From Donghicola mangrovi (GTDB taxonomy: Bacteria; Pseudomonadota; Alphaproteobacteria; Rhodobacterales; Rhodobacteraceae), in NCBI RefSeq assembly GCF_013377535.1, contig NZ_JABCJE010000003.1:1-64000 (forward strand): 64,000 bases of DNA. The letters run 5' to 3'. Below the pieces are notes generated by a model, which saw only the letters and a program-made list of their open reading frames with translations, was not told where the DNA came from and ran no database searches. The first letter of the stretch is position 1. Each line of letters opens with the position of its first letter. Position numbers and translations under genes: made by a program. Positions 14,477 through 30,410 of this stretch are shown in pieces.

Positions 14477-15658
14477 ATGCTAGAGACACCAGCGCGCATC
14501 GAGCCTTGCGGCCTTGAGGAGGCGGTTCCTGAAGCGCTCTCAGATTTGGTCGTGAAAATCAGTGTGGAAGCTGAAGCTCTTGGTTTGGGGCTGCATGAAG
14601 ACACCGTCGCTGAGTTGCGCGCTGTCATGCGGATCACGAATTCCTATTTCTCCAACCTGATCGAAGGCCACAGAGTTAATCCTTGCGATATCGAACGCGC
14701 GGTCGAAGGCTGTTTCGATGAGGTTGAGAACAGCGTACTGGCACAAGAGGCTGCTGCGCTCATCGAGGCGCAGAGTTGGGTCGACGAAGTCGTGGCACAC
14801 GGTACAGTGCCAACGTCAGCGGCCTTCATACGTGAGATCCATCGGCGCTTCTTTGAAACGCTGCACCCTGATCTTCGGGTTGCCGAGCATGGCTCGTTGC
14901 GGCGTGAGATTGTCCCGGGCCAATTTCGAGTCGAGGGTCATGAGGTTAGCGTCGGTCTTCACATTCCTCCTTCTGCGCATCGGGTCGAAGCTTTCATGGC
15001 GCATTTCGAACGCCGCTATTTCGGCCTGACGCGGGGTGCTCGCGGGCGCGTCCTGTCAATTCCAGCTGCGCATCATCGGCTAAATTTCATTCACCCGTTC
15101 GATGACGGGAATGGTCGCGTCAGTCGTTTGATGTCTCATGCAATGTGCCAAGCTGCTGGTATCAGTGGCCGAGGTTTATGGTCTATAAGCCGTGGTCTGG
15201 CGCGCGGGCTGAACGACCCTTTGGAATACAAGCAGCGGATGGAAGCAGCAGACCAACCGCGCCGAGGGGATCGGGATGGTCGCGGCAATCTCTCCCTTGC
15301 CATGCTTGAAAGTTTCACCGGTTGGTTCTTAGGCGTCATCCACGAACAACTGCTTTTTACCAAGGACCTTTTCAATTCGGCGTCTCTCTGCGAACGATAT
15401 ATTGCTTTGGTCTGCGAAATATTCCCGGACCAGAATGGCCTACCGAATTTGGTCTCCCATGTTTTTCATCATGGTGAGATGGCGATTGAGGATGCATGTC
15501 AAATGCTTGGAGCCTCACATCTTCCGGCACTGCTAGAGCTGTCAGATCGAGGTTTCCTTAAACAGGCGAGTGCGACCTGTCCCATTCGGCTGGCTTTCCC
15601 GATTGAGCACCATCAAACGCTATTCCCGAAGCTTTTCCAACTTTCTGATTCAGTTTGA
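14477..15658 (+). CDS. Fic-domain protein (AMPylase type, class II inhibition motif)
   Basis: A 393-residue Fic/DOC protein. The active-site motif HPFDDGNGR is intact at 206-214, with the upstream HxxFxxIHPF-like segment AAHHRLNFIHPF. An N-terminal inhibitory helix motif S-x3-E-G (Ser59 to Glu63-Gly64) marks it as a class II, self-inhibited Fic enzyme. The C-terminal third (about 290-393) looks like a winged helix, often the DNA-binding part of such proteins. ATG 14477 was chosen; a TTG lies one codon upstream and no strong ribosome site is seen. It probably AMPylates a host or phage-related target; it sits in a scar zone beside a CRISPR array. Confidence 0.88.
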   Translation: MLETPARIEPCGLEEAVPEALSDLVVKISVEAEALGLGLHEDTVAELRAVMRITNSYFSNLIEGHRVNPCDIERAVEGCFDEVENSVLAQEAAALIEAQSWVDEVVAHGTVPTSAAFIREIHRRFFETLHPDLRVAEHGSLRREIVPGQFRVEGHEVSVGLHIPPSAHRVEAFMAHFERRYFGLTRGARGRVLSIPAAHHRLNFIHPFDDGNGRVSRLMSHAMCQAAGISGRGLWSISRGLARGLNDPLEYKQRMEAADQPRRGDRDGRGNLSLAMLESFTGWFLGVIHEQLLFTKDLFNSASLCERYIALVCEIFPDQNGLPNLVSHVFHHGEMAIEDACQMLGASHLPALLELSDRGFLKQASATCPIRLAFPIEHHQTLFPKLFQLSDSV

Positions 15659-15980: not shown

Positions 15981-16214
15981 GCGCGGTAGCCGTTCATGAA
16001 CAAATTGTGGATGGACTCAGGGTTGTCCCATTTCTGTTTCTATCCGCATTAGCGCGGTAGCCGTTCATGAACGTAAATCTGGGCGTCATCGCCGTTGTCG
16101 CAGTCTGTTTCTATCCGCATTAGCGCGGGAGCGGTTCATGAACCAATCACAACTGGAAAATCGATCCGGTGATCCGGGTTTCTATCCGCATTAGCGCGGG
16201 AGCGGTTCATGAAC
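15981..16214 (-). CRISPR. CRISPR array 1 (4 repeats, 3 spacers)
   Basis: 37-bp repeats at 16036-16072, 16107-16143 and 16178-16214, plus a degenerate oldest copy ending at 16001 of which the last 21 bases are kept. All three spacers are 34 bp. In crRNA sense (minus strand) each repeat is palindrome GTTCATGAAC, a 5-nt linker, hairpin CCGC-GCTAAT-GCGG and the 8-nt tail ATAGAAAC, the classic 5' handle. The linker is GGCTA in the two older repeats and CGCTC in the two leader-proximal ones, unlike CTTCA in arrays 2 and 3. Direction is set by the degenerate trailer on the left and the leader on the right. Confidence 0.95.
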
Positions 16215-16411
16215 GGGGTTTCTGGAAGCCAGTGAAAAATATTGGGAAAATACAGCACTTTCCAAGGTCGAGGTTTGTCCGGTAGATTTTCAGTATTGTT
16301 TCCTCTCTTTTTGTGTTTTGCAACTAAAATACTTAAATAATTTCAGGGCGTTGTTAGATTTCCAAGGTTGATTTTCGCGATTCCGCCCCCTCATAGCACT
16401 ATGATGGACCG
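16215..16411 (-). promoter_or_regulatory. Leader of array 1 and upstream region of RT-cas1
   Basis: This 197-bp AT-rich segment lies between the newest repeat of array 1 and the divergent RT-cas1 gene. It shares blocks with the other two leaders: GGGTTTCTGGAAG directly after the repeat, CTTTCCAAGGTCGAG at 16258-16272 (43 nt from the repeat) and TTTCCAAGGTTGA at 16359-16371 (144 nt). It should hold the leftward array promoter and the rightward RT-cas1 promoter. Confidence 0.75.
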
Positions 16412-18355
16412 ATGCGTGATCTTTTCTCAACCCTGATTTCTGACGAACAATTGGTTTCTGCTTGGGGAAAAGTGGCCGAAAATTCTGGGTCGCCAGGCGG
16501 CGATGGCGTGACGATCCAAAAATTCCAGCGCCGATTGGAGCAGAATATCCGACTATTGCAGGCACAACTGCGGGATGGGGATTACTTTCCCGGTCCCTTG
16601 CGGGCGGTGGATATTCCAAAACGTGACGGCGGGCAGCGACGGCTGAACATACCTTGCGTCAGGGACCGCATCGCGCAAACTGCGGTCGCACAGCTGCTTG
16701 ATCCGGTTCTGGACCCGCTATTTTCGCCGGACAGCTTTGCCTATCGCTCTGGTCGGTCAGTGGATATGGCGGTGCGTCGGGTGGATGCGCTCCGGCGGCA
16801 GGGCTATGGCTGGGTGGCTGAAAGCGACATTCGCCGCTGCTTTGACAGTATTCCGCATGAGCCTTTGCTGGCTCGGCTCTCAGAGGTGCTACGTGATCAT
16901 CCTGGGCGGGACGAAACGCTGGATCTGATCGCCCTGTGGCTGGAGCATTTCGGGGCCGAGATGGACACGCCCGGTGTTGGGCTGTCCCAAGGGTCGCCAA
17001 TCGCGCCACTATTGTGCAACTTCTATCTGGATCAGTTCGATGACGGCTTGGCCGAGATCGGAATTCGCTGCGTCCGATTTGCCGATGACTTTGTGCTGCT
17101 GGCCAAGACAGAAGCGCAGGCCCATAACGCATTGGGGCACGCCTCGGGTATTCTGCGCGAACACGGGCTAGAGCTGCATGGCGACAAGACCCGCGTGGTG
17201 CCCTTCGACGAGGGGATGGAGTTTCTGGGCCACTTGTTCATCCGCTCAATGGTTCTTCGGCAGGTCAGTGATCCCGATGAGGATAGCGGAACACTTCTGA
17301 AAGCTGCTCCGCCTGCCGTGCTGCCCGCAGATGACCCACAGCACGACGCCGAGGCATATCGAGTATTGTATCTGACGGAAGATGAGTTGGTTCTTGACCT
17401 GCGGAACCTGTCGTTCTCGGTTCAGCGTGAGGGGCATGAGGTCATGGCCGTTCACCCCGAGGCGGTTGCGCGGGTTGAGGTGGGGCCAGACGCGACAGTA
17501 ACGGACAGGGCGCTGCGGCAGGCACTGGCGGCGGGAGTGGAGCTGGCTTTTGTTGACGGACGTGGTCAAACCAAGGGGTGGCTGCGCGCCCCTGAATTTG
17601 ACCGGGCGGGGCTGCATCTGGCGCAGGCGCGACTGTGTCTGGATCCGGCATTTTCTTTGGATATGGCGCGGCGGCTGGTAGATTTGCGACTGCGCAACAT
17701 GCGCGCTCAGTTGCATCGGTTGAATCGGGGGAGTCGTGATCCTCAGGTCATTGCGGCAACGGCGGCGCTGGGGCGTATCCTGCGCAAGTTGCCCGATTGC
17801 GGCGCTGTGCCCGAATTGATGGGGCAAGAAGGGGCCGCAGCTGCTCTTTATTGGCCAGCCTTGGGCAGGTTGTGCGCGGCCGTGCAGGGGAATTTCATGC
17901 GGCAGCGTCCCGCGCTTGATCCGTTGAATGCGGCGATTAACTACCTGACGGCGATGTTGGAGCGGGACATCCATTCTGCCATTTTGCGCGCTGGTCTGCA
18001 TCCTGGATTCGGGCTTTTACATACGCCCCGCGACCGGCACGAAGCCTGTGTCTATGACCTGATGGAGGGGTTTCGCGCCCCGTTGACCGAAGGCGTGGCG
18101 GTTACTTTGTTCAACCAATCGCGCCTGCGGGATCAGATGTTCGACGTGTGCGATGACAGTGTTCGGATTGATCGCGAAGGCATCCGGGCCTTGATCACAG
18201 GTTATGAGCGGACAGTGTCACGCAAATTGCGCTCGGTTCATTCGAGACAACAGCGCACGTGGCGCGCGATCATGCTGGAAGAGGCACGGGCCTTTGGTCG
18301 CCATTGTTCCGACCCGACCAAAAATCCTTTTAAGGGGCAGGTGCTGGACTACTGA
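16412..18355 (+). CDS. cas1: Reverse transcriptase-Cas1 fusion
   Basis: A 647-residue RT-Cas1. Residues about 1-280 are a group II-intron-like reverse transcriptase: first catalytic Asp139 (SDIRRCFDSI), SQGSPIAPLL at 192-201, and FADD at 223-226 in place of YADD. Residues about 315-400 are the Cas1 beta domain and 400-647 the helical integrase domain with the metal triad Glu473 (GQEGAAAALYW), His537 (GLHPGFGLLH) and Asp549 (YDLMEGFR). No Cas6 domain is fused at the N-terminus; a separate cas6 lies at 28849. It would acquire spacers, including from RNA, together with Cas2. The ATG at 16412 lacks a clear ribosome site. Confidence 0.97.
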   Translation: MRDLFSTLISDEQLVSAWGKVAENSGSPGGDGVTIQKFQRRLEQNIRLLQAQLRDGDYFPGPLRAVDIPKRDGGQRRLNIPCVRDRIAQTAVAQLLDPVLDPLFSPDSFAYRSGRSVDMAVRRVDALRRQGYGWVAESDIRRCFDSIPHEPLLARLSEVLRDHPGRDETLDLIALWLEHFGAEMDTPGVGLSQGSPIAPLLCNFYLDQFDDGLAEIGIRCVRFADDFVLLAKTEAQAHNALGHASGILREHGLELHGDKTRVVPFDEGMEFLGHLFIRSMVLRQVSDPDEDSGTLLKAAPPAVLPADDPQHDAEAYRVLYLTEDELVLDLRNLSFSVQREGHEVMAVHPEAVARVEVGPDATVTDRALRQALAAGVELAFVDGRGQTKGWLRAPEFDRAGLHLAQARLCLDPAFSLDMARRLVDLRLRNMRAQLHRLNRGSRDPQVIAATAALGRILRKLPDCGAVPELMGQEGAAAALYWPALGRLCAAVQGNFMRQRPALDPLNAAINYLTAMLERDIHSAILRAGLHPGFGLLHTPRDRHEACVYDLMEGFRAPLTEGVAVTLFNQSRLRDQMFDVCDDSVRIDREGIRALITGYERTVSRKLRSVHSRQQRTWRAIMLEEARAFGRHCSDPTKNPFKGQVLDY

Positions 18356-18364
18356 CCCAGCGCC

Positions 18365-19179
18365 CGCACAGTCCGCATTAGCGCGGTGAAGGTTCATGAA
18401 CTTAAAAATACAAACAAATAACCTTGAAAGTAGGTTTCTATCCGCATTAGCGCGGTGAAGGTTCATGAACCGTACTTTTATCCCGAGAGCAAGTTCGGAA
18501 ATGTTTCTATCCGCATTAGCGCGGTGAAGGTTCATGAACTTGTTGTTCGTCCGCGTCCCAAGAAAAAGAAAGTTTCTATCCGCATTAGCGCGGTGAAGGT
18601 TCATGAACAAAAATCTCTGATGTCGACGATCTTGCAACCCTCAGTTTCTATCCGCATTAGCGCGGTGAAGGTTCATGAACCGAATCTTTGAGGAACTATC
18701 CTAGAACAACAGTTCTCTGTTTCTATCCGCATTAGCGCGGTGAAGGTTCATGAACACTTCATTTTCGCTATCATCACTACCGTCGTTACGTTTCTATCCG
18801 CATTAGCGCGGTGAAGGTTCATGAACAATAGTGGAATACTTGCGAAAATTGTTAGCGGTCAGTTTCTATCCGCATTAGCGCGGTGAAGGTTCATGAACTC
18901 ATCAGGTCGCCGGGCATGGGAATGCTCACGTTTCTATCCGCATTAGCGCGGTGAAGGTTCATGAACTCTACGGTGGTGGTGCGGCTGTAAAGGTCTAAGT
19001 TTCTATCCGCATTAGCGCGGTGAAGGTTCATGAACAAAAAAAAAAAAAAGAACTCGCTAATTTCATGAGAGTTTCTATCCGCATTAGCGCGGTGAAGGTT
19101 CATGAACATTTATGACTGGGAGGTCATTCATGCATTATTCGCGTTTCTATCCGCATTAGCGCGGTGAAGGTTCATGAAC
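18365..19179 (-). CRISPR. CRISPR array 2 (12 repeats, 11 spacers)
   Basis: 37-bp repeats start at 18434, 18503, 18572, 18644, 18719, 18790, 18862, 18930, 18999, 19071 and 19143; a degenerate oldest copy ends at 18401 with its outer bases lost. Intact copies are identical, with crRNA linker CTTCA. Spacers are 31-38 bp. The array is read leftward, toward the 3' end of RT-cas1, from the leader at 19180. The spacer at 19036-19070 begins, on the plus strand, with fourteen A residues. I could not search spacer targets. Confidence 0.97.
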
Positions 19180-19668
19180 AGGGTTGCTGCAGGTCATTGA
19201 TCTTATTTATGAATTCGACCACCTTTCCAATGTCGATTTTCAAGCGGGGCTTGTAGATTGATTAAGCCTCGGTCTTGAATGTCAAAATTTAAAATTCACA
19301 CGAAAAATCAATAACTTGATAATTTCCAAGGTTGATTTCCCATTGTTTTCATTGTGATGCAAGCTTTGTACGCCCTGATCCAAAAATCAACCCTGATTTT
19401 GGGGGTGATAGTGCGCCAAGCGAAACGGATATTTTTTGGGGTCGTCGGGGTGTAAATGTGTAAGTTCTATTTTATATTTTGGCTGCCTGAGTGTTTCCAA
19501 AATTTTTCACGGTGTAGAGCCATGAGTTCGTACTTCGTGTAAGCTCAAGTATTCTTTGAATTTTTGTGTTCCTTCAACATATTTCTCGGGGAATTTTATT
19601 TTTTGATTTCTGGGGTTCTCAAATTTGTACGTTTCTGCAAGCTTGTTGCAAATTACGGATTTTAAGAA
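19180..19668 (-). promoter_or_regulatory. Leader of array 2 and upstream region of the cmr operon
   Basis: 489 bp without a gene. Next to the array it repeats the leader design: AGGGTTGCTGCAGG, CTTTCCAATGTCGAT at 19223-19237 (44 nt from the repeat) and TTTCCAAGGTTGA at 19323-19335 (144 nt). The remaining roughly 330 bp up to cmr1 is strongly AT-rich and must hold the operon promoter. A second short TTTCCAA occurs near 19493. This leader is much longer than the other two. Confidence 0.7.
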
Positions 19669-20913
19669 ATGATTTGGACTGCAGATTTCGATGTTGTCAC
19701 GCCACTTTTCGGTGCTGGAAATGATCAGAGTGTGCCGGAGATCCGGCTAACAAGCATCAAGAACGAGATTGTCTTCTGGTGGCGCGCAATCGCCTTCCAG
19801 AGCTATCTTGCGGCCACCAAAGATCCTGCTCCCTATCGGGAGGCCCTGTCTCGTCTGCAAAAGGACGAGCGCCTGCTGTTCGGGGATGCCACCCGTGGTC
19901 AAGGGCTGTTTGTCGCAGCGCTGAGCGGTAAGTCTGGGGATAAACTTACAGCCAATGCCCTTTTCGATCCGAAAAAGAGGCCGGGCGTGACCTACATGGG
20001 CTATGGTCTGGCAGAAAACTGTAAGAACCGAGAATACGTGGAAGATGCCCGTTTCACCCTGACTTTCAGGTTTAAACCCGCAGTCGCCCGTGATCCTGCC
20101 AAAGCAGAGCTGCTTAAGTCCTTGTACCGTGCCATACGAATGACGGGATTGATTGGGGCTTTTGGCGGTCGCAAGCGGCGTGGCTTTGGTAGCTTGTCAT
20201 TGCGGGCTTTTGAAGGGTGTCCGTATTGCGACGAATTTGTGCCGGTGGTCGATGCACCTGATTTGAAGCAACAGATCGCGGCATTGGCTGGCTCACGGAA
20301 TGTAGGCGGTCAGCAATGGGAGTTGAGCGCTTTCGCCAAGGAAACCGAAATCCGCATTTGGAGCTCTGGAGGTTTCAAAAGCGGACAAGATGCTCTGGAA
20401 GCCGCTGGCAATGAGTTTCGAACCTATCGAAGCTGGAAGCCACTCCTATACAACTTTCGCCCTGACCATGACTGGTTCAAATCAGCGTGGTCAACAGACA
20501 AAGAACACGATCAAAGTAAGTGGCGTTGTCGACCGAATAATGTACCAGAGCGTGCCGCATTTGGTCTGCCCCATAACTACTTCAAATATGGCAAAAATGT
20601 AGGACTTGAAAACCTGAAGGCCAAGGTTGCGCCGTCGGAGACCGACGTAGAACGGCGCGCCAGTCCGCTGATCTTTCGGATCGCCCGTGTTGGAAAGATT
20701 TACGTTCCTGTCGCGATCTTCTTTGACAATCTTTTCCTTCCAAATTTCAAGAACGGCACGGTCGGGACGCTGAAGATCGCTGGAGATAGCAACGTCAAGT
20801 ATCGGTACGAGCGTCAGGTTATTTTGGATTTCTTGGATGGTGCAATTCGCCATGGCAGCGCCGGCTCAAGAGGATCAGCTGGCAACGCACCATTTGGCGA
20901 AAGGGTTGCTTGA
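19669..20913 (+). CDS. cmr1: Type III-B RAMP protein Cmr1
   Basis: A 414-residue RAMP subunit. The N-terminal segment DVVTPLFGAG..QSVPEIRLTSIKNEIVFWWRA matches the Cmr1 signature (TPLF...R..S.KG..RFWWRA), and the glycine-rich loop GAFGGRKRRGFGSL at about 165-178 is the RAMP motif. Cmr1 caps the head end of the Cmr effector and helps capture the 3' part of target RNA. It is the first gene of an eight-gene operon and its stop overlaps the cas10 start. Confidence 0.93.
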   Translation: MIWTADFDVVTPLFGAGNDQSVPEIRLTSIKNEIVFWWRAIAFQSYLAATKDPAPYREALSRLQKDERLLFGDATRGQGLFVAALSGKSGDKLTANALFDPKKRPGVTYMGYGLAENCKNREYVEDARFTLTFRFKPAVARDPAKAELLKSLYRAIRMTGLIGAFGGRKRRGFGSLSLRAFEGCPYCDEFVPVVDAPDLKQQIAALAGSRNVGGQQWELSAFAKETEIRIWSSGGFKSGQDALEAAGNEFRTYRSWKPLLYNFRPDHDWFKSAWSTDKEHDQSKWRCRPNNVPERAAFGLPHNYFKYGKNVGLENLKAKVAPSETDVERRASPLIFRIARVGKIYVPVAIFFDNLFLPNFKNGTVGTLKIAGDSNVKYRYERQVILDFLDGAIRHGSAGSRGSAGNAPFGERVA

Positions 20914-22889
20914 TGGACAAGAAAATCCTTCATTTCACGATCGGCCCTGTTCAGGGATTTATCAATGATGCCCGCAGGCTGCGAGATTATTGGGCTGGTT
21001 CGTTTTTACTGTCATTGTTGTCCGGTCACGCCATGCAAGCAGTGACCAAGGCGGGTGGACAGGTTGTCTTCCCACAGGTGGAGAATGATCCGCTTTTTAC
21101 GGCATTGAGCGAGCGGAAGGGTGCGCCATACATTGGATCCCTTCCAAACCGCTTCATGGCAGTGGTTTCCGCTGAAGAAGCGGCAGATATTGCTCGGCGA
21201 AGTACGCAGGCCGTGAATGATGCTTGGGCGGAAATCTGCGAGGCTATTTGGGATGCATTCTTCGAAAGTGTGTCTTCAAAAAGTGCGGATGGCGGTTCAG
21301 CCGCAGCGCGGATATGGCAGCGACAAATTCAAAACTTTTGGTCTACAGCCTGGGTTGTCGGTGAAGCTCCGAATGATGGCAGCGATGGTGCATGGCTGGA
21401 CTTGCGCAAGAACTGGCGAACCCATTTTCCTGACAGTATCGAGGACGGGGATCATTGTCGCCTGATGGGACAATACCAGGAATTGTCCGGGTTCCATCGC
21501 ATCGGGGGGCGGAGGCGGCAGCAGGCCTTTTGGGAATGCGTCCGCGCGAAGCTCGGGCAGGAAAGCTTGGATGTGTCTCCGAACGAGCCGCTTTGTGCGA
21601 TTGCCTCAGTTAAGCGACTTTTCCCAATTCTTGTGCGTCAAAAAGGGAAGATTGGAAGTGCTTTGCCCTTTTGTCCCGGTGATGGGGTTTTGAATATCCG
21701 GAACTGGCCATCGACGAGTTATATTGCGGCCTCTCCTTGGCTTCGGGGCATTGATCGCAGTGCTGATGGGGTTGAAGAGAGCCTGCAAAATTATGCGGAG
21801 ACAGCAAAAAACATTTTCCCTTCAGCAGCATTCTCTGAATGGGAAAGCCCAGAGCTTTTAGGTCTCCCATACGACAGAAACTCAAGATTTTTTCGCCTTG
21901 ATGGGCACTTGCTCCACGAAGACGCGATCCCGGGAACGGTAAAGGATTTTCAAAAACGCACCGCAACAGTATTAGATCATCGAACTTCTCAGAAGCTGCA
22001 AGCCTCTCTCAAGGAGTTGCAAGGCAAGATTGGAAACCGACCGTCCGAGTTCTATGCAATTCTGAGAATGGATGGTGATAGCATCGGGGCCGCACTACGA
22101 GAGGAACCTGACGTCATAAAAGCCGCGCTAGCAGACTTCACCCGTGATGTCGCAGTTGCATTTGATCCGGGATCTCAAGAGGCGGTGGCTGGTGTCTTGG
22201 TGTATGCTGGAGGCGATGATGTTTTGGCGGTGTTGCCCGCTGACGAAGCTATAGAAACAGCCATGAAAATGCGCGAAATATACAGCGCATCATTTGCAAA
22301 ATTTTCCAAGAAATCAGCGCAGTATACGCTCTCAGGTTCGATCATTTTCGCTCATTTCAAGCGTACACCTTTATCGACAGCTTTGAGGCAATCCAGCCAC
22401 TATCTTGATGTGGTTGCTAAAGATCAAAATGGCAGGAACTCACTGGCAATCGCTGTCCTGAAGCCAGGTGGAGTGCAGTCGGATTGGGTCTGTGCATTTG
22501 AAGCGGGAGGGGGCCTGATAAAGCAGCTTGATGAAATTGCGCAGCTTGGACTGGGTGTTGATGGAGGCGCAGGTTTGGCGGGCGGCTTCTTTCACGCTGT
22601 AGAACGGAAATATGGAACACTCTTTAAATCTGGAAATAGTGTAGACATGAAAGTCCTGCTTTCGCCACTCGTCACGCATCAACTGCGACAGCAATACGGA
22701 AGAAATGAAGCAGCCAAAGAAATTAGGGAACTGTCCGAGAAAATCTGCTCAATCTACTCGCCACTTTGTGGCCCATCAGCGGATCAGGATCCAGGCGTGA
22801 GTTTTGGTGGTGGACAGGTAATCCGGTTCCTGAATTCCGATGGCACTATTGCTTCAATTGCAAACAAAAGGGCGCGGCATGATGACTGA
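20913..22889 (+). CDS. cas10: Cas10 (Cmr2), HD-less, with intact GGDD cyclase
   Basis: A 658-residue Cmr2. It begins directly with FTIGPVQGFINDARRLRDYWAGS, the start of the first palm region in this family, and I see no HD nuclease motif before or after it; HD-bearing Cmr2 proteins are usually much longer. The first palm carries LRMDGDSIG near 385-391 and the second palm carries GGDD at 433-436 (YAGGDDVLAV), the cyclic oligoadenylate synthase site. So the complex should signal through cOA rather than cut DNA through Cas10. The ATG at 20913 overlaps the cmr1 stop. Confidence 0.95.
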   Translation: MDKKILHFTIGPVQGFINDARRLRDYWAGSFLLSLLSGHAMQAVTKAGGQVVFPQVENDPLFTALSERKGAPYIGSLPNRFMAVVSAEEAADIARRSTQAVNDAWAEICEAIWDAFFESVSSKSADGGSAAARIWQRQIQNFWSTAWVVGEAPNDGSDGAWLDLRKNWRTHFPDSIEDGDHCRLMGQYQELSGFHRIGGRRRQQAFWECVRAKLGQESLDVSPNEPLCAIASVKRLFPILVRQKGKIGSALPFCPGDGVLNIRNWPSTSYIAASPWLRGIDRSADGVEESLQNYAETAKNIFPSAAFSEWESPELLGLPYDRNSRFFRLDGHLLHEDAIPGTVKDFQKRTATVLDHRTSQKLQASLKELQGKIGNRPSEFYAILRMDGDSIGAALREEPDVIKAALADFTRDVAVAFDPGSQEAVAGVLVYAGGDDVLAVLPADEAIETAMKMREIYSASFAKFSKKSAQYTLSGSIIFAHFKRTPLSTALRQSSHYLDVVAKDQNGRNSLAIAVLKPGGVQSDWVCAFEAGGGLIKQLDEIAQLGLGVDGGAGLAGGFFHAVERKYGTLFKSGNSVDMKVLLSPLVTHQLRQQYGRNEAAKEIRELSEKICSIYSPLCGPSADQDPGVSFGGGQVIRFLNSDGTIASIANKRARHDD

Positions 22890-24006
22890 AAGATCATTCC
22901 GCTTTGATGCTAACGATACCCTGATGTTTCGGGATGGCGCTCCCTTTAATCAGGCTGATGACGGCGCAGCTCAGGCTCGGAGTGTTTTCCCACCTAACAG
23001 TTCAACGCTAATCGGTGCGCTCAGACTTAAACTGGCGCAAAACTTGGGTTTTCCCGAACAAGCTTGGCCCTCCAATTTCTTGGGAGATGGTGTGAATTGG
23101 CAATCCGAAAAGAGTGTTCTCGGTAGTCTCCAATTCTCCCCTATTTTGCTTTCTAGGAGGAACGAGGGGCAGACGAGTGTTTTACTCCCGTGTCCGCTGA
23201 GTGTGGTAAATGTGCAGTCTGAAAGCGGAATCCAGCCCGCACTTCTTTCGCCGAGTGACGAAACTTTTGAAACAGATATTGGTGCTGTCCGTTTGCCTGC
23301 GGTGTCGAGCGCCATGCGCTTTGGCAAGGTCAAGCAGCTCTCCCAATCCTTTGTCGAATTGGATGATTTTTCGCGGATTCTGAACGGGCTTCCGCCAAAG
23401 AATCCGGTCGCCGCCAACAAACTTTGGTCAAATGAGGTTCGAACCGGTATCGGGATTGATGAAACGTCACGGCATACGCGAGATGGTGAGCTTTATTTCG
23501 CGTCTCACATTCGTCTTCATGATGACGTCTCGCTCGATTTTTCGGTGACAGGGCTTGGGTGTGATGAGATTGCCTCCTGTTCTCTACCCGTTGGCGGAGA
23601 GCATAGGATGATGCATCTGTCTAATTCCGAGATTAGCTTCGCCTCGGTACTGAAGACCATTCAAGAAGCCCAGTCCGATGATGCCGGGCGAAGAGGCTAT
23701 TGCGCGATAGCTTTGTCACCGATGCTTTTGAAAAAAACAATTGTGCCAGGCACATCCCTGCATCCCGAATTGTCGGGTACTCTTGTCTCGGCCTGTGTTG
23801 GCACAGCCGAATGGGCTGGTGGTTGGGACTCTTTAAGCAGACGCCCGATCCCGATGGTGCAACTGCTGCCCGCTGGGACAGTTCTGTTCTTTGAAAAAGC
23901 TCTGGGAATAGAGACCCCGAAACAGGGATCAATTATTAAAGTTGGCGCAGCGACCGAATGGGGCTTGGGTCACATGATTATTGGAAATTGGAGAAAAAAC
24001 ACATGA
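22879..24006 (+). CDS. cmr3: Type III-B RAMP protein Cmr3
   Basis: A 375-residue Cmr3. The N-terminal hallmark is clear: FRDGAPFNQADDGAAQARSVFPPNSSTLIGALR. The C-terminal glycine-rich loop GAATEWGLGHMIIGNW ends the RAMP fold. Cmr3 binds the crRNA 5' handle next to Cas10. The start is one of two adjacent ATGs (22879 or 22882), both overlapping the cas10 end; the frame runs further upstream but the domain begins here. Confidence 0.93.
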   Translation: MMTERSFRFDANDTLMFRDGAPFNQADDGAAQARSVFPPNSSTLIGALRLKLAQNLGFPEQAWPSNFLGDGVNWQSEKSVLGSLQFSPILLSRRNEGQTSVLLPCPLSVVNVQSESGIQPALLSPSDETFETDIGAVRLPAVSSAMRFGKVKQLSQSFVELDDFSRILNGLPPKNPVAANKLWSNEVRTGIGIDETSRHTRDGELYFASHIRLHDDVSLDFSVTGLGCDEIASCSLPVGGEHRMMHLSNSEISFASVLKTIQEAQSDDAGRRGYCAIALSPMLLKKTIVPGTSLHPELSGTLVSACVGTAEWAGGWDSLSRRPIPMVQLLPAGTVLFFEKALGIETPKQGSIIKVGAATEWGLGHMIIGNWRKNT

Positions 24007-24842
24007 GCGCGATTGTATCGTTTCTTGCAGAAACACCCGTGCATGTGGGTATTGGGCAATCGAATGCTGCGATTGATTTGCCTTTTGCAAGGGAGTCTTC
24101 GACCGGCTTTCCTCATGTTCCGGGATCAGGAATGAAAGGTGCATTTCGTGTGTGGTCGAATGGCGCTGGTTTCGACGATGGTGCGAAAAAGGATCTCTTT
24201 GGGGTTGCCGCAGATGAAGATGAAGGATCCGACAAAGGCGCTGGCAGCATCTTACTTGGAGAAGCCCGTCTTGCCCTGTTGCCGGTGCGATCTGTGTCTC
24301 ACAGCTATCTTTATATTACCTGTCCTACCATCTTGCGCCGCCTCTCCCAAGATGTTGCGCGTGCTGGTGTAAGCCTCGCGTTTCCAAAGCTCGATGAAAT
24401 TGCTGAAGGAAAGTGTTTGTCCGAGAGCGAAATAATCGGTTTGGAGGAAAGAGAGTTTCAGCGACAAGGCTATGTCCCTGAAGGACTTTCAGAGACTTTA
24501 ATTTCATTATTTCCACAGCGTTTTTCGAATGAAGATGAGCTGGGAAATCGGATCGTCATTCTGAATGATGCGGATTTTTCCTGGTTTGCTGAATTTGCTC
24601 TTCAAGTTGTGACGCGCAACAGCCTTGACGAGAACAAACGTGTGAAAACCGGTGCTCTTTGGAGTGAAGAGCTTCTTCCGACTGATAGCTTGCTGTGGAT
24701 GTTTCTTGGGACCCGTAATGGCACTTTGGAAAAAGTTCGCACGGCGATTGTTGCTGAACCATACCTGCAAGTGGGGGGGAACGAGACTATTGGGCAGGGC
24801 TGGTTGCATATGCAATGTCTTCCCCTCGGAGCTGCCATATGA
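24003..24842 (+). CDS. cmr4: Type III-B backbone ribonuclease Cmr4
   Basis: A 279-residue Cas7-type RAMP. The segment VGIGQSNAAIDLPFARESSTGFPHVPGSGMKGAFR contains the catalytic Asp25 that cuts target RNA at 6-nt intervals in known Cmr complexes, and the GNETIGQGW loop near the C-terminus is the RAMP glycine motif. Several copies would form the crRNA-binding filament. ATG overlaps the cmr3 stop (ATGA). Target RNA cleavage activity is therefore expected to be intact. Confidence 0.94.
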   Translation: MSAIVSFLAETPVHVGIGQSNAAIDLPFARESSTGFPHVPGSGMKGAFRVWSNGAGFDDGAKKDLFGVAADEDEGSDKGAGSILLGEARLALLPVRSVSHSYLYITCPTILRRLSQDVARAGVSLAFPKLDEIAEGKCLSESEIIGLEEREFQRQGYVPEGLSETLISLFPQRFSNEDELGNRIVILNDADFSWFAEFALQVVTRNSLDENKRVKTGALWSEELLPTDSLLWMFLGTRNGTLEKVRTAIVAEPYLQVGGNETIGQGWLHMQCLPLGAAI

Positions 24843-25300
24843 TGACTCTTGATCAACGGCGCGCAAAATTTGCACTTGAAAAGGTCAACGAGGTTGTCGG
24901 GTTATCTGCGGAGCCCAACAGCGCTTATCGCGCCTACGTCCGGAAATTTCCATCCACAGTACAGCGGAACGGCCTCATGCAGGCTCTGGCGCTCGAGCTG
25001 GCGCTGGCCAATCGCTCTGGCGGCGATGCGGCTGCACATAAGCATGTGCTCTGCCATGTCTCGGCTTGGCTGGTTGATCCTTCTGGATGGGGCCCCAGAA
25101 GCCCGCACTTCACGGAGAAGTCGTTCAATTATCTCTCAACAGACCTGGTTAAACGGATGTCGGAGGGTACTGAAAAGGAACTGATACGTACCCAATACGA
25201 GATGATGACTTATCTGCGATGGCTTAAGACCTTTGCAGAAGCGCTGATCCCGCCGCCTGAAAAAGGAAATTCGGAACCGGCGCCTGAGGAAGGGGTATGA
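24839..25300 (+). CDS. cmr5: Type III-B small subunit Cmr5
   Basis: A small all-helical Cmr5 of 153 residues (ATG 24839; a second ATG follows at 24842). QRRAKFALEKVNEV, then YRAYVRKFPSTVQRNGLMQALAL and the closing YLRWLKTFAEALIP match the Cas11-type Cmr5 pattern. It forms the minor filament beside Cmr4. The last 14 residues are Pro/Glu-rich and probably disordered. Overlaps both neighbours by a few bases. Confidence 0.9.
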   Translation: MMTLDQRRAKFALEKVNEVVGLSAEPNSAYRAYVRKFPSTVQRNGLMQALALELALANRSGGDAAAHKHVLCHVSAWLVDPSGWGPRSPHFTEKSFNYLSTDLVKRMSEGTEKELIRTQYEMMTYLRWLKTFAEALIPPPEKGNSEPAPEEGV

Positions 25301-26295
25301 TGCAGCTTCTATCAGGCGGTCGGGAACGCAAGGTTGTCCCGGTAAACAAAGGGCTGCAGTTCGATAAGTTCTTCGACAGATGGGAAGCGAGCCAGGAATT
25401 TGACGTCAAGAACCCCGAAAAGCAGGCTTGGATCAAAGAATTCGCCAAGAACCCCGTTGGAGTTAAGGAGGAGCTAAAGCGCGCTGTCGAACGGCAAACT
25501 TCTCTTTTGAGTAAACAGAAGGGCTGGTGCGTCAAAGCCGATACCGCATCTCGGGTGATCACAGGCATGGGGCTACCTCATCCCCTAGAAAATGGTTTGC
25601 TTTGGCACCACACGCTTGGGGTGCCGTATATTTCGGGCAGCTCGCTAAAAGGGATGTGCCTTGCTTGGGCGCGTGAGTGGCTTGAGTGGGAAAAGCCGGA
25701 GATTGATCGCATTTTTGGTTCAGCGAATTGCCAAGGGTCAGTAATCTTCTTTGATGCTTTGCCGATTGTGCCACTAAAACTCGTGGCTGATATTATAACG
25801 CCCCATGGAAGCTGGCGTTTGGTAGATGTGCCGAAGGAAGGGGCTATCCAGACACCTTCGGATTGGGCCACGCCCGTGCCATCCCCCTTTCTTGCGATTG
25901 AAGAGCAGCAAACATTCCAGTTTTCATGTGCGCCGGTAAATCGGCGAAGTGATGCAGATAAGACGGACTGTGATGCCATTCAGGCCGTACTGTTTGAAGC
26001 GCTTGAGTGGTTGGGGATCGGTGCCAAAACGGCTGTGGGCTACGGGCGCTTTTTGAGTGTCGAGAGACGAAAAAATCTAGATCAGAATTCTTCTAAGCGG
26101 AGAAGTTTGGCGGAAAAAAGACTGGCTGAACAAACACCGGAGTTGACGAAACGAGTAGGTTCGATCTGCTTTTATTGCGGAGAAGAGGTGAAGGTCATCG
26201 CACTGAGTGCAGGTGCTGCGAACATCGAGTATCTAGAAGATGGCACGGTTGTTAATGGCATCCCTCTCAAAGCTCTAAATCTCAAACTCAGATGA
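25297..26295 (+). CDS. cmr6: Type III-B RAMP protein Cmr6
   Basis: A 332-residue Cmr6. The signature GMGLPHPLENGLLWHHTLGVPYISGSSLKGMCLAWA at about 89-124 and the loop GIGAKTAVGYGRF near 248-260 are both clear. Cmr6 caps the tail end of the Cmr filament. It carries an extra C-terminal part of about 65 residues with a single CFYCG pair that might bind metal but lacks a second pair. ATG overlaps the cmr5 stop. Confidence 0.93.
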   Translation: MMQLLSGGRERKVVPVNKGLQFDKFFDRWEASQEFDVKNPEKQAWIKEFAKNPVGVKEELKRAVERQTSLLSKQKGWCVKADTASRVITGMGLPHPLENGLLWHHTLGVPYISGSSLKGMCLAWAREWLEWEKPEIDRIFGSANCQGSVIFFDALPIVPLKLVADIITPHGSWRLVDVPKEGAIQTPSDWATPVPSPFLAIEEQQTFQFSCAPVNRRSDADKTDCDAIQAVLFEALEWLGIGAKTAVGYGRFLSVERRKNLDQNSSKRRSLAEKRLAEQTPELTKRVGSICFYCGEEVKVIALSAGAANIEYLEDGTVVNGIPLKALNLKLR

Positions 26296-26591
26296 CAGAC
26301 TGGTTTGTGTCTCGTCATCAAGCGACCATGGAATGGGCCAAAGGGCAGCACATTGCAGCCAATTTCGTCTCGCACTTGGATATTGCGAAGGTGCAGCAGA
26401 ATGATCGCGTCTATGGCACTTTACCAATCCAATTGGTCGCAGAGGTTTGCGCCAAAGGGGCGCGATATTTTCATGTCATACTTGATTTGCCTGCAGAGCA
26501 TAGGGGCAAGGAACTGACCATGGTGGATCTGCAACGTTTCGGAATTAGGCTGCAGGAATTTATGGCGAAAGAAATTTTAGATGGACGCTAA
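26292..26591 (+). CDS. csx16: Csx16 (VVA1548 family), putative ring nuclease
   Basis: A 99-residue Csx16. WFVSRHQATMEWAKGQ, AANFVSHLDIAKVQQNDRVYGTLP and AAEVCAKGARYFHV-like LVAEVCAKGARYFHVILDLPAEHRGKEL follow the family profile closely. Csx16 proteins occur only with type III systems and are proposed to degrade cyclic oligoadenylates and so switch off ancillary effectors. ATG overlaps the cmr6 stop and its own end overlaps the CARF effector start by 11 bp, so the two are co-translated: a likely effector/off-switch pair. Confidence 0.9.
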   Translation: MTDWFVSRHQATMEWAKGQHIAANFVSHLDIAKVQQNDRVYGTLPIQLVAEVCAKGARYFHVILDLPAEHRGKELTMVDLQRFGIRLQEFMAKEILDGR

Positions 26592-27468
26592 AACAAGGAT
26601 CGTTTCGGCAAATTGGATGGCGGGGCCCGCGGCGATCGTTGCCGTTGTGCTTTCCGGGATCGTTTACAGTTCGGAAAAGCTGTGGGATCACATTTGGGAG
26701 GACCTTGATCAGGCCCACGTTTTTCTTTTCACCATTCCACTGTTTGCTCTTCTGCTCTGGGGATGCGCATACCTTTTCGCGCCGCGTGTCAATCGGATTA
26801 CTCAGGCCACCGCCCGTGTTCGGACGGATGCAGAACTTACACCACCCGAGTATTTAATCACAGGCTATTCGCCAATCGGAAACCTGTCTGGTTTTGACGC
26901 GACGGTGAAGGCGCAGGCCTTGGTAGAGGATTTTGAAGGTAACCTTGGTAATGTGTGTGATGAGCATAAACTGGATCGCAATCTTTACCCACTGTCATGG
27001 CAACAGAACTTGCGCGTGATCCGTGCGGCGTGTCGCAAAGGGAAATTGAAGCAAGTTCTGGTTGTAGAGCCAAACTTCGACCAATTCGAAGCTTTCCAAA
27101 CCTGCATTTCGGGTTTTTGTCCTGAAATCGATGTCAAAAGAGTTTCTGCCAAAGGAAACCCCTCGGCCAGATTTACGACCATGTATGGTAGTGTAGAGGG
27201 GCAGGACTATGAGAATTTCGATTACGTCACAGCAGCGATTGCGCGTGCTTTCGAGATGATCGCCGAGGATGCGGGGAAAAAGATAGAAGACCTGGAGGAT
27301 AGGGTCGCCTTCGATGTCACTCCTGGCCTGAAAATCTTTTCGATCGCAACAGCGATCCAGTCTTTGAACAGGAATGCGATCTTTTATTACGCCAAGACGA
27401 ATGGACCAGATCAGGGCAAGGTAATAGCCTATGATGCCTCTATCGGGTTCTCGACATCGCCAATGTAA
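26581..27468 (+). CDS. CARF-domain membrane effector (two TM helices), Cam1/Csx23-like role
   Basis: A 295-residue protein. Two hydrophobic helices at about 14-32 and 46-66 are joined by a short acidic loop, giving both ends in the cytoplasm or a hairpin topology. Residues about 85-295 form a Rossmann-type CARF sensor; the hallmark loop is DVTPGLK at 245-251 (usually DxTGGTK), followed by SIATAIQSL and a FYY...GKVIAYDAS strand pair. As the last gene of the cmr operon, next to Csx16, it should bind cyclic oligoadenylate and disturb the inner membrane. I cannot assign it to a named family with certainty. Confidence 0.8.
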   Translation: MDAKTRIVSANWMAGPAAIVAVVLSGIVYSSEKLWDHIWEDLDQAHVFLFTIPLFALLLWGCAYLFAPRVNRITQATARVRTDAELTPPEYLITGYSPIGNLSGFDATVKAQALVEDFEGNLGNVCDEHKLDRNLYPLSWQQNLRVIRAACRKGKLKQVLVVEPNFDQFEAFQTCISGFCPEIDVKRVSAKGNPSARFTTMYGSVEGQDYENFDYVTAAIARAFEMIAEDAGKKIEDLEDRVAFDVTPGLKIFSIATAIQSLNRNAIFYYAKTNGPDQGKVIAYDASIGFSTSPM

Positions 27469-27490
27469 CATTTGCATAATTCCCATGAGT

Positions 27491-27517
27491 AAAAGGCCGT
27501 CCCGAAGGCGGCCTTTT
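27491..27517. terminator. Terminator of the cmr operon, abutting array 3
   Basis: An inverted repeat AAAGGCCG / CGGCCTTT with a short GC loop is followed by a T-run, 22 bp after the last cmr operon stop. It directly touches the oldest, decayed repeat of array 3 (27519). Because A residues precede and T residues follow the stem it should also stop leftward array transcripts. Confidence 0.85.
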
Positions 27518-27518
27518 T

Positions 27519-28340
27519 GCATTGGTGCGGTGAAGGTTCATGAACCAGGGGGAAATCCTATCTAATGTTTGACCCAAGTTTCTATCCGCATTGGCGCGGT
27601 GAAGGTTCATAAACCGGACAATCCGCTTCCTAATTCCAGACACTCAGTTTCTATCCGCATAAGCGCGGTGAAGGCTCATGAACCCGATGAATCACCTCAG
27701 CTGGACGGGGTAATCTCGGATTACTCTACTCCTGGGTTTCCAATGTTTCTATCCGCATTAGCGCGGTGAAGGTTCATGAGCGCGTCAAGTTTTCCACAGG
27801 AAAGGGCGTGTTTGCGTTTCTATCCGCATTAGCGCGGTGAAGGTTCATGAACATAACGGCGCAATCCTAGGAGCATAACGATGGGTTTCTATCCGCATTA
27901 GCGCGGTGAAGGTTCATGAACGGTTTTTAGAGTTCACCACGGTGGGCAAGGTATTTTTCTATCCGCATTAGCGCGGTGAAGGTTCACGAACAATGCAGCG
28001 GCCCTCGGAGTTGAAGAGAAAGGTTTCTATCCGCATTAGCGCGGTGAAGGTTCATGAACCTTCGGTGGTCTCGCAAGACCTGTCCGCAATAGTTTCTATC
28101 CGCATTAGCGCGGTGAAGGTTCATGAACATTCAATTTTTCTGCTTAGGACCTATTATATTTGTGTTTCTATCCGCATTAGCGCGGTGAAGGTTCATGAAC
28201 TAATTTTTCGGGAGGGACTATTGTCCAAAACTGGTAAGTTTCTATCCGCATTGGCGCGGTGAAGGTTCATGAACAAACCATCGGTGAAAACAAGCAGCGC
28301 CCTGTTTCTATCCGCATTAGCGCGGTGAAGGTTCATGAAC
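27519..28340 (-). CRISPR. CRISPR array 3 (12 repeats, 11 spacers)
   Basis: Repeats start at 27578, 27647, 27745, 27816, 27885, 27955, 28023, 28092, 28164, 28238 and 28304; the oldest copy (ending 27545) is truncated and fused to the operon terminator. The linker is CTTCA as in array 2. The older half has several point variants: ATTGG for ATTAG, CATAAAC, ATAAG, GGCTC, CATGAGC and GGTTCACG; one newer repeat (28238) has ATTGG as well. Spacers are 31-38 bp except 27684-27744, which is 61 bp. The array is transcribed leftward from the leader at 28341. Confidence 0.96.
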
Positions 28341-28561
28341 AGGGTTTCTGGAAGATACTGATTTTGTTGATGAAAAAACCATTGCTTTCCAAGGTCGAGC
28401 ATTTCTCCTTTTATTTTGCAATGTGAAACACTGAATTACGTGTCGCAAAATCGCAAATTTATGAGGTCGTACAGGTGTTTACACTTTTTCCAAGGTTGAA
28501 TTATTGACTCTGGCGCTGTGTCGCGCAAGCTTTAGTTGAAGTTTTTTCATGAGGACGGGAA
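28341..28561 (-). promoter_or_regulatory. Leader of array 3 and upstream region of cas2-cas6
   Basis: 221 bp between the newest repeat of array 3 and the divergent cas2. Blocks shared with the other leaders: AGGGTTTCTGGAAG after the repeat, CTTTCCAAGGTCGAG at 28385-28399 (44 nt from the repeat) and TTTCCAAGGTTGA at 28487-28499 (146 nt). A TTGACT at about 28504-28509 may be the -35 of the cas2-cas6 promoter. Confidence 0.75.
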
Positions 28562-28852
28562 ATGGCAAGAACAAAGATGCTGATGGTCTTTGTTTATGAC
28601 GTATCGTCCGCAAAACGCCGCCGGAAGGTCGCCGGAATACTAGAGAAACACGCAACTCGGGTGCAGTACTCGGTCTTTGAGGCGCGCCTAAGTCAACGCA
28701 AGGCTGATACGATTGCAGAACGTGCGGCGACGCATCTGGATGCGGGCGATAGTCTGCGGATGTACGCGGTCGGGGCGGACGGATTTCAACGCTCTCGCGT
28801 CTTTGGCAGCAGCATTCCCATGCAAACCGCCGAGGGGTTCTGGCTGATATGA
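28562..28852 (+). CDS. cas2: Cas2
   Basis: A 96-residue Cas2 of normal size. It shows FVYDVSSAKRRRKVAGILEKHATRVQYSVFEARL, with the conserved Asp after the first strand and the RVQxSVFE motif. It dimerises and bridges Cas1 pairs for spacer integration. It lies 10 kb from RT-cas1, which is unusual since the two are normally adjacent, but both sit beside an array leader of the same type. Its stop overlaps the cas6 start. Confidence 0.95.
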   Translation: MARTKMLMVFVYDVSSAKRRRKVAGILEKHATRVQYSVFEARLSQRKADTIAERAATHLDAGDSLRMYAVGADGFQRSRVFGSSIPMQTAEGFWLI

Positions 28853-29739
28853 ACCATATGTCTCGGGTCTCGATGACCCAGATCAGAAACAGTTTGTCTA
28901 TGGCACAGGCCGAGAGTTGGACATGGCCGCAAGCCGCCGCCGCTCTGCGCTGGACGGATATAGAGGTTGCTTTGCCAACAGGCGCGGCCCGCAGCACAAT
29001 CCCCCGTCTGTTGGCCTTGCGCGGGGCGCTGGGACAGGCCCTGGATATTGCGCAAGATCCGAATTGGTCTGATCATCCGTCGGCAGGCCAGATGATGTTT
29101 CTGGAATGGCCCACCAGATTTAGCCGGGATGCATCTTATCCCAAGCCCTTCGTGCTCCAGGCAGATGATCAGACAGGTCTTTTGCGGCTGCGGCTGTTCG
29201 GCCCCTTGCAGGTGTGGGCGGATCTGTTGGCATCACATTTGGTGGCATTGCTTGAACGGGGGATTGCACATGCCGATGGCTGGTCGTCGGAGGCTGTACT
29301 CGGATGTCGGATTTCCCCGCGATCTCTTGGCGGGGCTGACTTTGCTTTGGGGCAACAAGCATTGCTGCGGTTTCTGACCCCGTTGTCGATGCGACAGGGT
29401 AAGGCCCTGCAAACATCTCCAGAGGCAGTTGTACGGGGAATTTATCGCCGCGCTGCCAGTATGCTCGCATGGCAAGGTGTCGGCTGCCCGATGCCTCCTC
29501 AGCAAGAGCAAGCGCGGATATTCTCTTGCCTGAAGGAAGTATCATGGGCTGAGAACGAGCTTGATCAATGGGAGCATCGGTCCAAGCGGCAGAAGACGCG
29601 CTATGCAGAGACGGGCGTCAAAGGTGTGATGCGTCTTGAGGGTGACCTAGACGGCATCGCTCATATGCTGCGGATAGGCGAGGTCGTCTGTGCTGGCGGA
29701 AATGGGGCGTACGGATGCGGACGTTTCGTGGTGATTTGA
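28849..29739 (+). CDS. cas6: Cas6-like crRNA processing endoribonuclease
   Basis: A 296-residue RAMP-type protein read as Cas6. The C-terminal half has GVKGVMRLEGDLDGIAHMLRIGEVVCAGGNGAYGCGRFVV, the characteristic strand followed by the glycine-rich loop at the C-terminus. It would cut each repeat at the base of the CCGC/GCGG hairpin, leaving ATAGAAAC as 8-nt handle. The catalytic His cannot be fixed by eye. It is coupled to cas2 (ATGA overlap) and is the only processing nuclease in the locus, since RT-Cas1 lacks the fused Cas6 found in some relatives. Confidence 0.85.
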   Translation: MNHMSRVSMTQIRNSLSMAQAESWTWPQAAAALRWTDIEVALPTGAARSTIPRLLALRGALGQALDIAQDPNWSDHPSAGQMMFLEWPTRFSRDASYPKPFVLQADDQTGLLRLRLFGPLQVWADLLASHLVALLERGIAHADGWSSEAVLGCRISPRSLGGADFALGQQALLRFLTPLSMRQGKALQTSPEAVVRGIYRRAASMLAWQGVGCPMPPQQEQARIFSCLKEVSWAENELDQWEHRSKRQKTRYAETGVKGVMRLEGDLDGIAHMLRIGEVVCAGGNGAYGCGRFVVI

Positions 29740-30410
29740 GGGGCAGGGGGTTAATGGCGTGGGGGCTGCCCCCAGAGATCGGTGTGCCAACGTAAGAAAG
29801 CAGTGGGCCACTATCGACGTTGCGTGAACCGCATGAGCTCTAGACTGTTCTAAATTGGGAGCTGTGAGTAGCCAAGTCTGCCCATTTTACGCTGGTAGGG
29901 TGTGCTTTGAAACGCCTCTCAGCGTAACGCTCTCTTTGGACTTTGGCGATGTTCGGGCGTTTGAAGAGGGGGAAACTCTTTGCCTCGATTCAAAAAACGT
30001 TCTCGAGATGCCCGAGACCGATTCGTCGTGCAAGCCTGCGTTTCACCTTTAGATTGCAGATCGGAAAATTAATTTCGACCTAAGAGTGTGCTGCTGGTAG
30101 GCAGTCAGGAACATCAGATTTCATTTTCTAAATTTTTTTTGGCCGAGATCTGCGTCGAAGACAAATCTAGGGCGCGAAATCGCCCTTCATCGCAGTGATT
30201 TTTTGTTTGTTTTCAACGCTTCCGGATTCTGATTTGCGAAAAAATGTTAATCTTATCAAATAGTTGGCAGTCGAAAAAAATTCTCTGAGGGTTGCGCCTT
30301 TTTGTTCAATCGGCTTAGAGCCGCCGCCGAACGCGCACGTTCATCTCGAAACCCTCAACTCCACCACCGGTCCCAGTGCATGCCTGGAGCCGGGGCGGCA
30401 CCCGTATGAC
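29740..30410. other. AT-rich gene-free stretch between cas6 and the transposon-side genes
   Basis: About 670 bp with no gene I can support. A 65-codon frame at 29855-30052 has no motif and no ribosome site. Small inverted repeats occur (TGGGGGC/GCCCCCA near 29764; AGGGCG/CGCCCT near 30170). The AT-rich, T-tract-bearing part at 30110-30300 would be a plausible place for a transposon end, but no terminal repeat could be paired with the other side. Confidence 0.4.

Follow-up and report, generated by a model that had tools for sequence, protein, structure and literature searches.

A paired, locus-specific word in the leaders of RT-Cas1 CRISPR arrays and its probable role as an integrase docking site

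The stretch of DNA analyzed here (the window: 64,000 nucleotides of Donghicola mangrovi, positions 1 to 64,000 of contig NZ_JABCJE010000003.1) sits in a 4.3-Mb genome and contains a type III-B CRISPR-Cas locus with a reverse transcriptase (RT)-Cas1 fusion and three CRISPR arrays. The leader of each array carries two matching copies of a short word, and this pair is the subject of the present analysis. Gene names follow matches to Pfam, NCBIfam, and PADLOC. All three identify the RT-cas1 fusion gene (16412 to 18355, plus strand; RVT_1 and Cas1), a single frame of 647 amino acids with RVT_1 at residues 68 to 274 and Cas_Cas1 at residues 319 to 599 in Pfam. RT and Cas1 stand in one protein and cas2 in the same locus, as in an RT-Cas1 adaptation module; cas2 (28562 to 28852, plus strand; Pfam, NCBIfam, and PADLOC) is located 10 kb from RT-cas1 and is followed by cas6 (28849 to 29739, plus strand; profile matches). 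Between RT-cas1 and cas2 lie cmr1, cas10, cmr3, cmr4, cmr5, cmr6, and csx16 (19669 to 26591, plus strand), found by the same three resources. The set of cas10/cmr2 with cmr1, cmr3, cmr4, cmr5, and cmr6 is that of a type III-B (Cmr) system; Cmr1 and Cmr3 fall below the NCBIfam cutoffs, and the RAMP and Cmr3 cutoffs of Pfam are passed. A CARF-TM effector gene follows (26581 to 27468, plus strand), recognized by PADLOC (CARF_TM, E value of 1.5e-14) and without a match in Pfam or NCBIfam.

The three arrays belong to one family of 37-nt repeats. Array A (15981 to 16214, minus strand) adjoins RT-cas1 and consists of three full repeats and a decayed partial repeat of 21 nt; array B (18365 to 19179, minus strand) holds 12 repeats, with its distal end 9 bp beyond the RT-cas1 stop codon; and array C (27509 to 28340, minus strand) holds 12 repeats and is decayed at its left end. 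Counted from left to right, array A shows the 21-nt partial repeat at 15981 and then 4, 4, and 4 mismatches to the B/C repeat, array B shows 6 mismatches and then eleven repeats with 0, and array C shows 9, 2, 2, 1, 0, 0, 2, 0, 0, 0, 1, and 0. The repeats read GTTTCTATCC... on the plus strand, with most mismatches at the left array ends, and on the minus strand they contain a CCGC...GCGG hairpin followed by ATAGAAAC at the end, a fold that is unexceptional (z of −1.3 and −0.8). Because the left-end repeat copies are decayed, the minus strand is taken as the CRISPR RNA (crRNA)-like strand. An earlier note on this DNA had described the arrays as read leftward, with leaders on the right that face RT-cas1, the cmr1-to-CARF genes, and cas2-cas6, and the left-end decay and the minus-strand ATAGAAAC confirm that arrangement. 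A genome-wide search for a 22-nt core of the repeat, with up to two mismatches allowed, gives 25 matches, all within arrays A to C.

Leader A (16215 to 16371, plus strand) lies between array A and RT-cas1, leader B (19180 to 19335, plus strand) faces the cmr operon, and leader C (28341 to 28499, plus strand) faces cas2-cas6. A 13-nt word, TTTCCAAKGTYGA, occurs twice in each, 44 to 45 bp from the last repeat and again after a further 99 to 101 bp. The word search places the proximal copies, all on the plus strand, at 16259 to 16271 in leader A (TTTCCAAGGTCGA), 19224 to 19236 in leader B (TTTCCAATGTCGA), and 28386 to 28398 in leader C (TTTCCAAGGTCGA), and the distal copies, which read TTTCCAAGGTTGA in all three leaders, at 16359 to 16371, 19323 to 19335, and 28487 to 28499. 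In the window, six matches to the word were found at up to one mismatch, compared with 0.47 expected; in the whole genome, the word has six exact matches, all on the same strand and all in leaders A to C. The leaders had also been called related, and this holds for the junction block next to the repeat (about 15 bp) and for the paired word, whereas over their whole length the leaders are 53 to 56% identical, close to the shuffled level (for one leader pair, 30 shuffles gave a mean of 46% and at most 55%). Likewise, the proposed position of each leader directly upstream of a gene set stands for A and C, where the distal word lies 40 bp before the ATG of RT-cas1 and 62 bp before that of cas2, and is looser for the cmr operon, where the distance is 333 bp. 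The same genome contains another CRISPR array, I-E-like and of 25 repeats, near a Cas1 match (G000:C12, 455000 to 474999); the paired word is absent from the side presumed to be its leader.

Relatives of the locus were collected from 84,980 species genomes by a scan in which four aligned RT-Cas1 proteins served as the query, and the best 80 of 293 relatives were kept; a contig scan with a single protein gave no matches. The best-scoring relatives come mostly from Alphaproteobacteria, and RT-Cas1 searches of the class and the order yielded few further loci (3 of 385 genomes and 3 of 390, respectively, at an E value of 1e-100, the own genome included). The main set consists of the window and 47 further loci, nearly all alphaproteobacterial by title; one titled Desulfarculus (L097) was included by score. 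Arrays were detected in 44 of these 48 loci (all but L065, L070, L085, and L091), giving 78 array flanks, 8 of them in type VI-A loci. Genes of the relatives were called by homology and codon position; arrays, orientation, and neighbors were assigned by script, and the flank labels partly by hand.

The pair recurs throughout this set. A loose pair rule is passed by 56 of the 78 flanks (44 loci), compared with 6 of 1,460 letter-shuffled flanks. The core TTTCCA, at up to one mismatch, occurs in the 9-bp window from +40 to +48 in 52/73 leaders and in the window displaced by +100 (+140 to +148) in 43/73, and in six other displaced windows (−30 to +80) in 1 to 8 of 73. A search that knows nothing of the motif and asks only for a self-matching 10-mer (up to two mismatches, offset of 43 to 47, spacing of 97 to 104) succeeds on 43 of 73 leader sides, on none of 71 tail sides, and on 0 to 3 of 73 at control offsets and spacings; the leader side of eight arrays (in L032, L037, L042, L062, and L079) was set after the flanks had been seen. 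The spacing in the main set is spread loosely over 97 to 105, with 89 besides, and when any spacing from 40 to 149 is admitted (up to two mismatches in 11), a pair is present on 50/73 leader sides and 17/71 tail sides. The layout recurs with other words, and the two copies vary jointly between loci: in the variable half of the word, 3.57 of 6 positions agree within a leader, compared with 2.00 between loci, which none of 10,000 permutations reached. For this test the pairs were picked regardless of similarity, and the outcome holds with one leader per locus (n = 38). Compared by eye, the word resembles the repeat end suggestively in L030 only. One leader of L062 departs from the direct-pair layout, in that a second word lies nearer and, judged by eye, appears to be inverted (CCCTGTGGAAA).

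Sixty-three type III flanks could be resolved, leaving out of the 78 the eight VI-A flanks, five truncated ones, one fragment, and array 1 of L062. Of the 63 leaders, 54 have a CRISPR-associated gene with its 5′ end toward them: RT-cas1 in 37, cas2 in 7, cas6 in 5 (the first gene of L045 is perhaps cas2 instead), cas10 in 3, and cmr1 and a corA-like gene in 1 each. Eight others face the 3′ end of a gene, and one faces a TraG-like gene; the latter array (L058, 12469 to 13018) has an intact leader pair, with 191 bp to the conjugation gene. More than one gene-facing leader occurs in 13 of 39 loci, and three occur in the window and in L048, where the units precede RT-cas1, cas6, and, at 242 to 518, the CorA-like ancillary gene. 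Outside this count, the annotated plasmid of Azospirillum lipoferum 4B has arrays just before RT-cas1 and before cas6, in whose flanks, taken from shortened repeat ends, no pair was found. The array-leader-gene geometry is therefore no accident of this one genome. A leader before every operon, for which the earlier note had advised searching RT-cas1 loci, is not the rule: in L044, L053, and L064, no array was found in the available 1.2 to 1.6 kb before cmr1.

The pair follows the array and not the gene, because it is kept in leaders that face no gene start, in VI-A loci of other orientation, and outside Alphaproteobacteria. It is present in 7/8 leaders that look onto a gene 3′ end, compared with 47/54 that face a gene start. 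Among the VI-A loci, Cas13a was confirmed by profile in L037, L041, L042, and L079, and L032 is VI-A by repeat and layout only; the array adjoining RT-cas1 there reads toward RT-cas1, with its leader on the far side. All eight VI-A arrays have a pair on one flank (up to three mismatches in 10) and none on the other, with different words, and for most of these arrays the leader side was picked by the pair itself. Words such as TTTCTGAAGG, TTTCTGAGGC, ATCTGAAGCAG, and CGTAGCTGATTGG in the four Cas13a loci are unlike the type III words.

Beyond the main set, RT-Cas1 loci show a pair on 16/25 leader sides and 5/23 tail sides (spacing of 40 to 149, up to two mismatches in 11). Arrays beside other Cas1 proteins were used as controls, with RT presence checked for the loci of 9 of the 16. 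Those with a pair are L137 and L139 (generic Cas1), L121 and L123 (I-C-type Cas1), and L133 (Cas4g/Cas1g type); L137 repeats an exact 11-mer at 44/100, and it and L139 have the layout without an RT. Seven of the 16 have I-C-like repeats of 32 to 33 nt and no pair, and one, L145, turned out to be an RT-Cas1 fusion without a pair. The paired layout is thus probably wider than RT-Cas1 and is not universal within it.

Two further features are found near the pair. The first is a match to the binding consensus of integration host factor (IHF). Leader B has a perfect match, AATCAATAACTTG (19306 to 19318, plus strand), which begins 17 bp before the distal word, and leaders A and C have none at up to one mismatch. 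Across 56 leaders, 12 of 14 forward matches at up to one mismatch begin 16 to 19 bp before the distal word, and the genome has four matches to the HU/IHF family. A candidate IHF site at +20 was dropped by eye, as its spacing does not fit the consensus. The second feature is the distance between the words: outside the main set, 14 of 16 spacings fall at 78 to 79, 88 to 90, or 99 to 101, steps of about one helical turn (the outliers are 94 and 112). In IHF-dependent systems, helical phase is expected to matter, according to the relevant parts of three papers (PMC9602844, PMC12259127, and PMC8616872).

As in IHF-assisted leaders, an anchor motif lies upstream, and its distance from the repeat is fixed. 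The IHF-assisted leaders of types I-E and I-F, as portrayed in parts of the same three papers, resemble those of RT-Cas1 loci in having a word far from the repeat, a bend site between, and a presumed contact with Cas1-Cas2. The long leader of the Synechocystis type I-D array, whose far motif is presumed to be brought to the integrase by a bend in the DNA (PMC10212523, in a passage citing Kieper 2019), is also similar, but that passage names motifs I, II, and III rather than two copies of one word, in a host without an IHF homologue. The present leaders differ from those of I-E and I-F in three respects: they carry two direct copies of a locus-specific word, at about +45 and +145, that vary by locus yet match each other; they belong to RT-Cas1 type III and VI-A systems; and IHF is only suggested, in a minority. 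In type I-F leaders the pair is inverted. The survey of leader motif distribution and phasing by Santiago-Frangos in 2021 reportedly found IHF-linked motifs in types I-C, I-E, I-F, and II-C. The paired word extends these known anchors as a variant.

For the family itself, the closest descriptions are of RT-Cas1 type III loci in Alphaproteobacteria (RT-CRISPR-7; Toro 2017, PMC5541045) and of VI-A/RT1 (Toro 2019, PMC6753606), whose accessible portions report a like gene set and host class and arrays that mostly lie less than 1 kb from the RT gene. These portions describe no leader element; the word “leader” occurs once in the text of the former paper and never in that of the latter. Array and cas direction mostly agree elsewhere, with the opposite rule in type II-C (PMC6737040, in part), and the back-to-back layout therefore looks unusual. 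The element was not found in the literature covered on RT-Cas1, type III-B, leaders, IHF, and divergent promoters; the leader surveys of Santiago-Frangos 2021 and Buyukyoruk 2025 may contain these words, and no claim is made that they are unpublished. A leader search based on conservation would tend to miss words that vary from locus to locus.

Taken together, the fixed distance from the integration point, the stepwise spacing, and the nearby IHF-like site make a docking site of the Cas1-Cas2 integrase, as an element of the array, the best reading of the paired word, with a probability of roughly 0.7 on the sequence evidence. In the mechanism that we infer, each leader would consist of a junction element, a word about 45 bp from the repeat, and a matching word another 100 bp or so away from the array, which in some members is directly preceded by an IHF-like bend site. 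The RT-Cas1-Cas2 integrase, or a partner that it needs, would bind both words, and a bend in the intervening DNA would fold the leader, bringing both words to the complex and fixing the leader-repeat junction as the point of integration. Since the arrays mostly stand back to back with cas genes, the distal word often lies near a start codon, where overlap between the promoter of that gene and the docking site is to be expected.

Several observations weigh against a docking site. The loci of the main set are related, and the counts are not those of independent events. The loose rule fails on 22/78 flanks, of which seven gene-facing flanks and one other are real misses; the other failures are five truncated flanks, one fragment, seven of the eight VI-A flanks (other word, most scored on the wrong side), and one unresolved flank. 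At any spacing, tail sides too yield chance pairs (the 17/71 given above), and among the arrays of other Cas1 proteins the 5 of 16 with a pair are near background, with a tail control of 0/1. No pair was found at the expected place in Azospirillum L119, the Tistrella-like loci L115 and L116, and the VI-A locus L118, in part because the array finder had shortened the repeat ends. Only 12/56 leaders have the IHF-like site, leader B alone among those of the window, and the 15 matches on the reverse strand are scattered, with 5 close to the junction. Finally, the helical grouping comes from 14 loci entered by hand, two of which (94 and 112) fall outside the groups, and periods of 10 to 11.5 bp all fit.

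The first alternative is the one that the earlier note had favored, namely that the leader acts chiefly as a bidirectional promoter-operator for joint regulation of the array and the cas genes, with the paired word as the operator of a transcription factor. The 54/63 leaders that face the start of a CRISPR-associated gene speak for it, as does the distance from the end of the distal word to the start codon, which is at most 25 bp in 28 of 43 measured gene-facing leaders (median of 13, window excluded); these distances are small partly by construction, as the start codon was shifted to the first in-frame start past the word whenever the longest frame opened upstream of that point. Gene-facing leaders also exceed the others in AT content and in −10 likeness over the 40 bp that precede the distal word (P = 0.011 each), and a sigma-70-like site (10/12) lies between the words of leader B, pointing at cmr1. 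This contrast has the right direction but is weak: leader positions 1 to 40 also differ in AT content (P = 0.022), and within loci the AT difference agrees in 6/8 and fails in 2/8, with the −10 score agreeing in 5/8 (one tie). A scan of the locus with a sigma-70 consensus gave 10 promoter-like sites, compared with 10.1 in shuffled sequence, and a conserved promoter pair was dropped as evidence on this count. A TTGACA-like stretch near +20 on the crRNA strand, considered as the −35 box of the array, was likewise dropped by eye, having no −10 box at the right distance.

What speaks against such shared control is that the pair is kept in 7/8 leaders without a gene start beyond and in VI-A loci with another array orientation, and that in leader B the distal word is 333 bp from cmr1; a primarily regulatory role is therefore unlikely. 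The claim that common leader sequence ties array to cas expression finds no support, given also the pair outside Alphaproteobacteria and the promoter sites at shuffled level; expression may be tied, but this is not what the common sequence shows. With the distal word within 25 bp of a start codon and the array pointing away, the gene promoter should lie in or overlap the leader, and wherever the word comes this close, the docking site and the promoter of the gene probably overlap.

The second alternative is pure history, in which one array was copied twice, the leaders are alike by descent, and their position before operons is a by-product without function. Copying itself has left possible traces. 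A 13-nt stretch past leader B, TCAACCCTGATTT (19387 to 19399, plus strand), is identical to RT-cas1 codons 6 to 10 (16427 to 16439) and lies at a matching distance from the distal word (51 bp in B, 55 bp in A; 0/1,000 shuffles, here mononucleotide shuffles of 120-nt stretches). On this evidence, unit B looks like a copy of unit A that took along part of the RT-cas1 start and came to stand before the cmr operon, which would explain the 333 bp between the distal word and cmr1. Leaders B and C share the 9-mer GCAAGCTTT past the distal word (47/1,000 shuffles), whereas A and C share nothing there (925/1,000 shuffles as good). The three units probably arose by copying of array and leader, for B perhaps with the first RT-cas1 codons too. 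History as the whole account is very unlikely, since leader identity has fallen to 53 to 56%, near the shuffled range, with words, spacing, and junction intact, and since the layout survives with different words at other loci. A small open frame just past leader B (19357 to 19455, MQALYALIQKSTLILGVIVRQAKRIFFGVVGV) contains the RT-cas1-like stretch and may be a relic.

That the word is instead a signal for transcribing the array is hardly credible: the array promoter does usually lie in the leader (PMC8616872, in part), but a word in two direct copies that vary jointly and are separated by about 100 bp, with the outer one about 145 bp upstream of the array, would make an odd promoter.

Some surroundings of the locus may be recorded here. 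No phage matched array B or array C when each was used as a single query, the whole locus as query gave no near plasmid match, and spacer 20-mers compared with the fetched loci matched only copies of the window's own locus (L109 to L114). A Fic protein on the left (14474 to 15658) and, on the right (30264 to 35518), DUF6634, an IS1595-type zinc-ribbon domain, and a weak integrase-core match below the cutoff point to a possible mobile setting. A 21-nt stretch at the RT-cas1 start (16401 to 16421) recurs with 19/21 identity at 30525 to 30545, inside the DUF6634 frame to the right of cas6, which is borderline with respect to chance. Between the CARF gene and array C, where both transcripts would meet, a strong terminator-like hairpin was seen by eye (27495 to 27530) that is absent from the scan list.

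How Cas1-Cas2 chooses the right end of an array has been worked out for few types, and RT-Cas1 systems, which can record RNA, had no such account in the literature covered. As a docking site, the self-matching pair at +45/+145 would be a testable address code and a design rule for recorder tools, and it allows arrays to be oriented, and leaders predicted, by simple means even without conserved sequence. Self-limiting adaptation can be tested directly, given how close the distal word lies to the start of RT-cas1 in many relatives. A more far-reaching idea, speculative and rather unlikely as it stands, is that the leader serves both as the address label for spacer integration and as the promoter-operator of the adaptation genes, so that RT-Cas1-Cas2 bound to both words would shut off or gate transcription of RT-cas1, cas2, and the array; the address would have no fixed sequence, only matching words at a fixed helical distance, inherited by copying. 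Were this true, adaptation would be self-limiting, every operon that starts from a leader copy would join one feedback loop, and each system would hold a private address that is passed on to new arrays.

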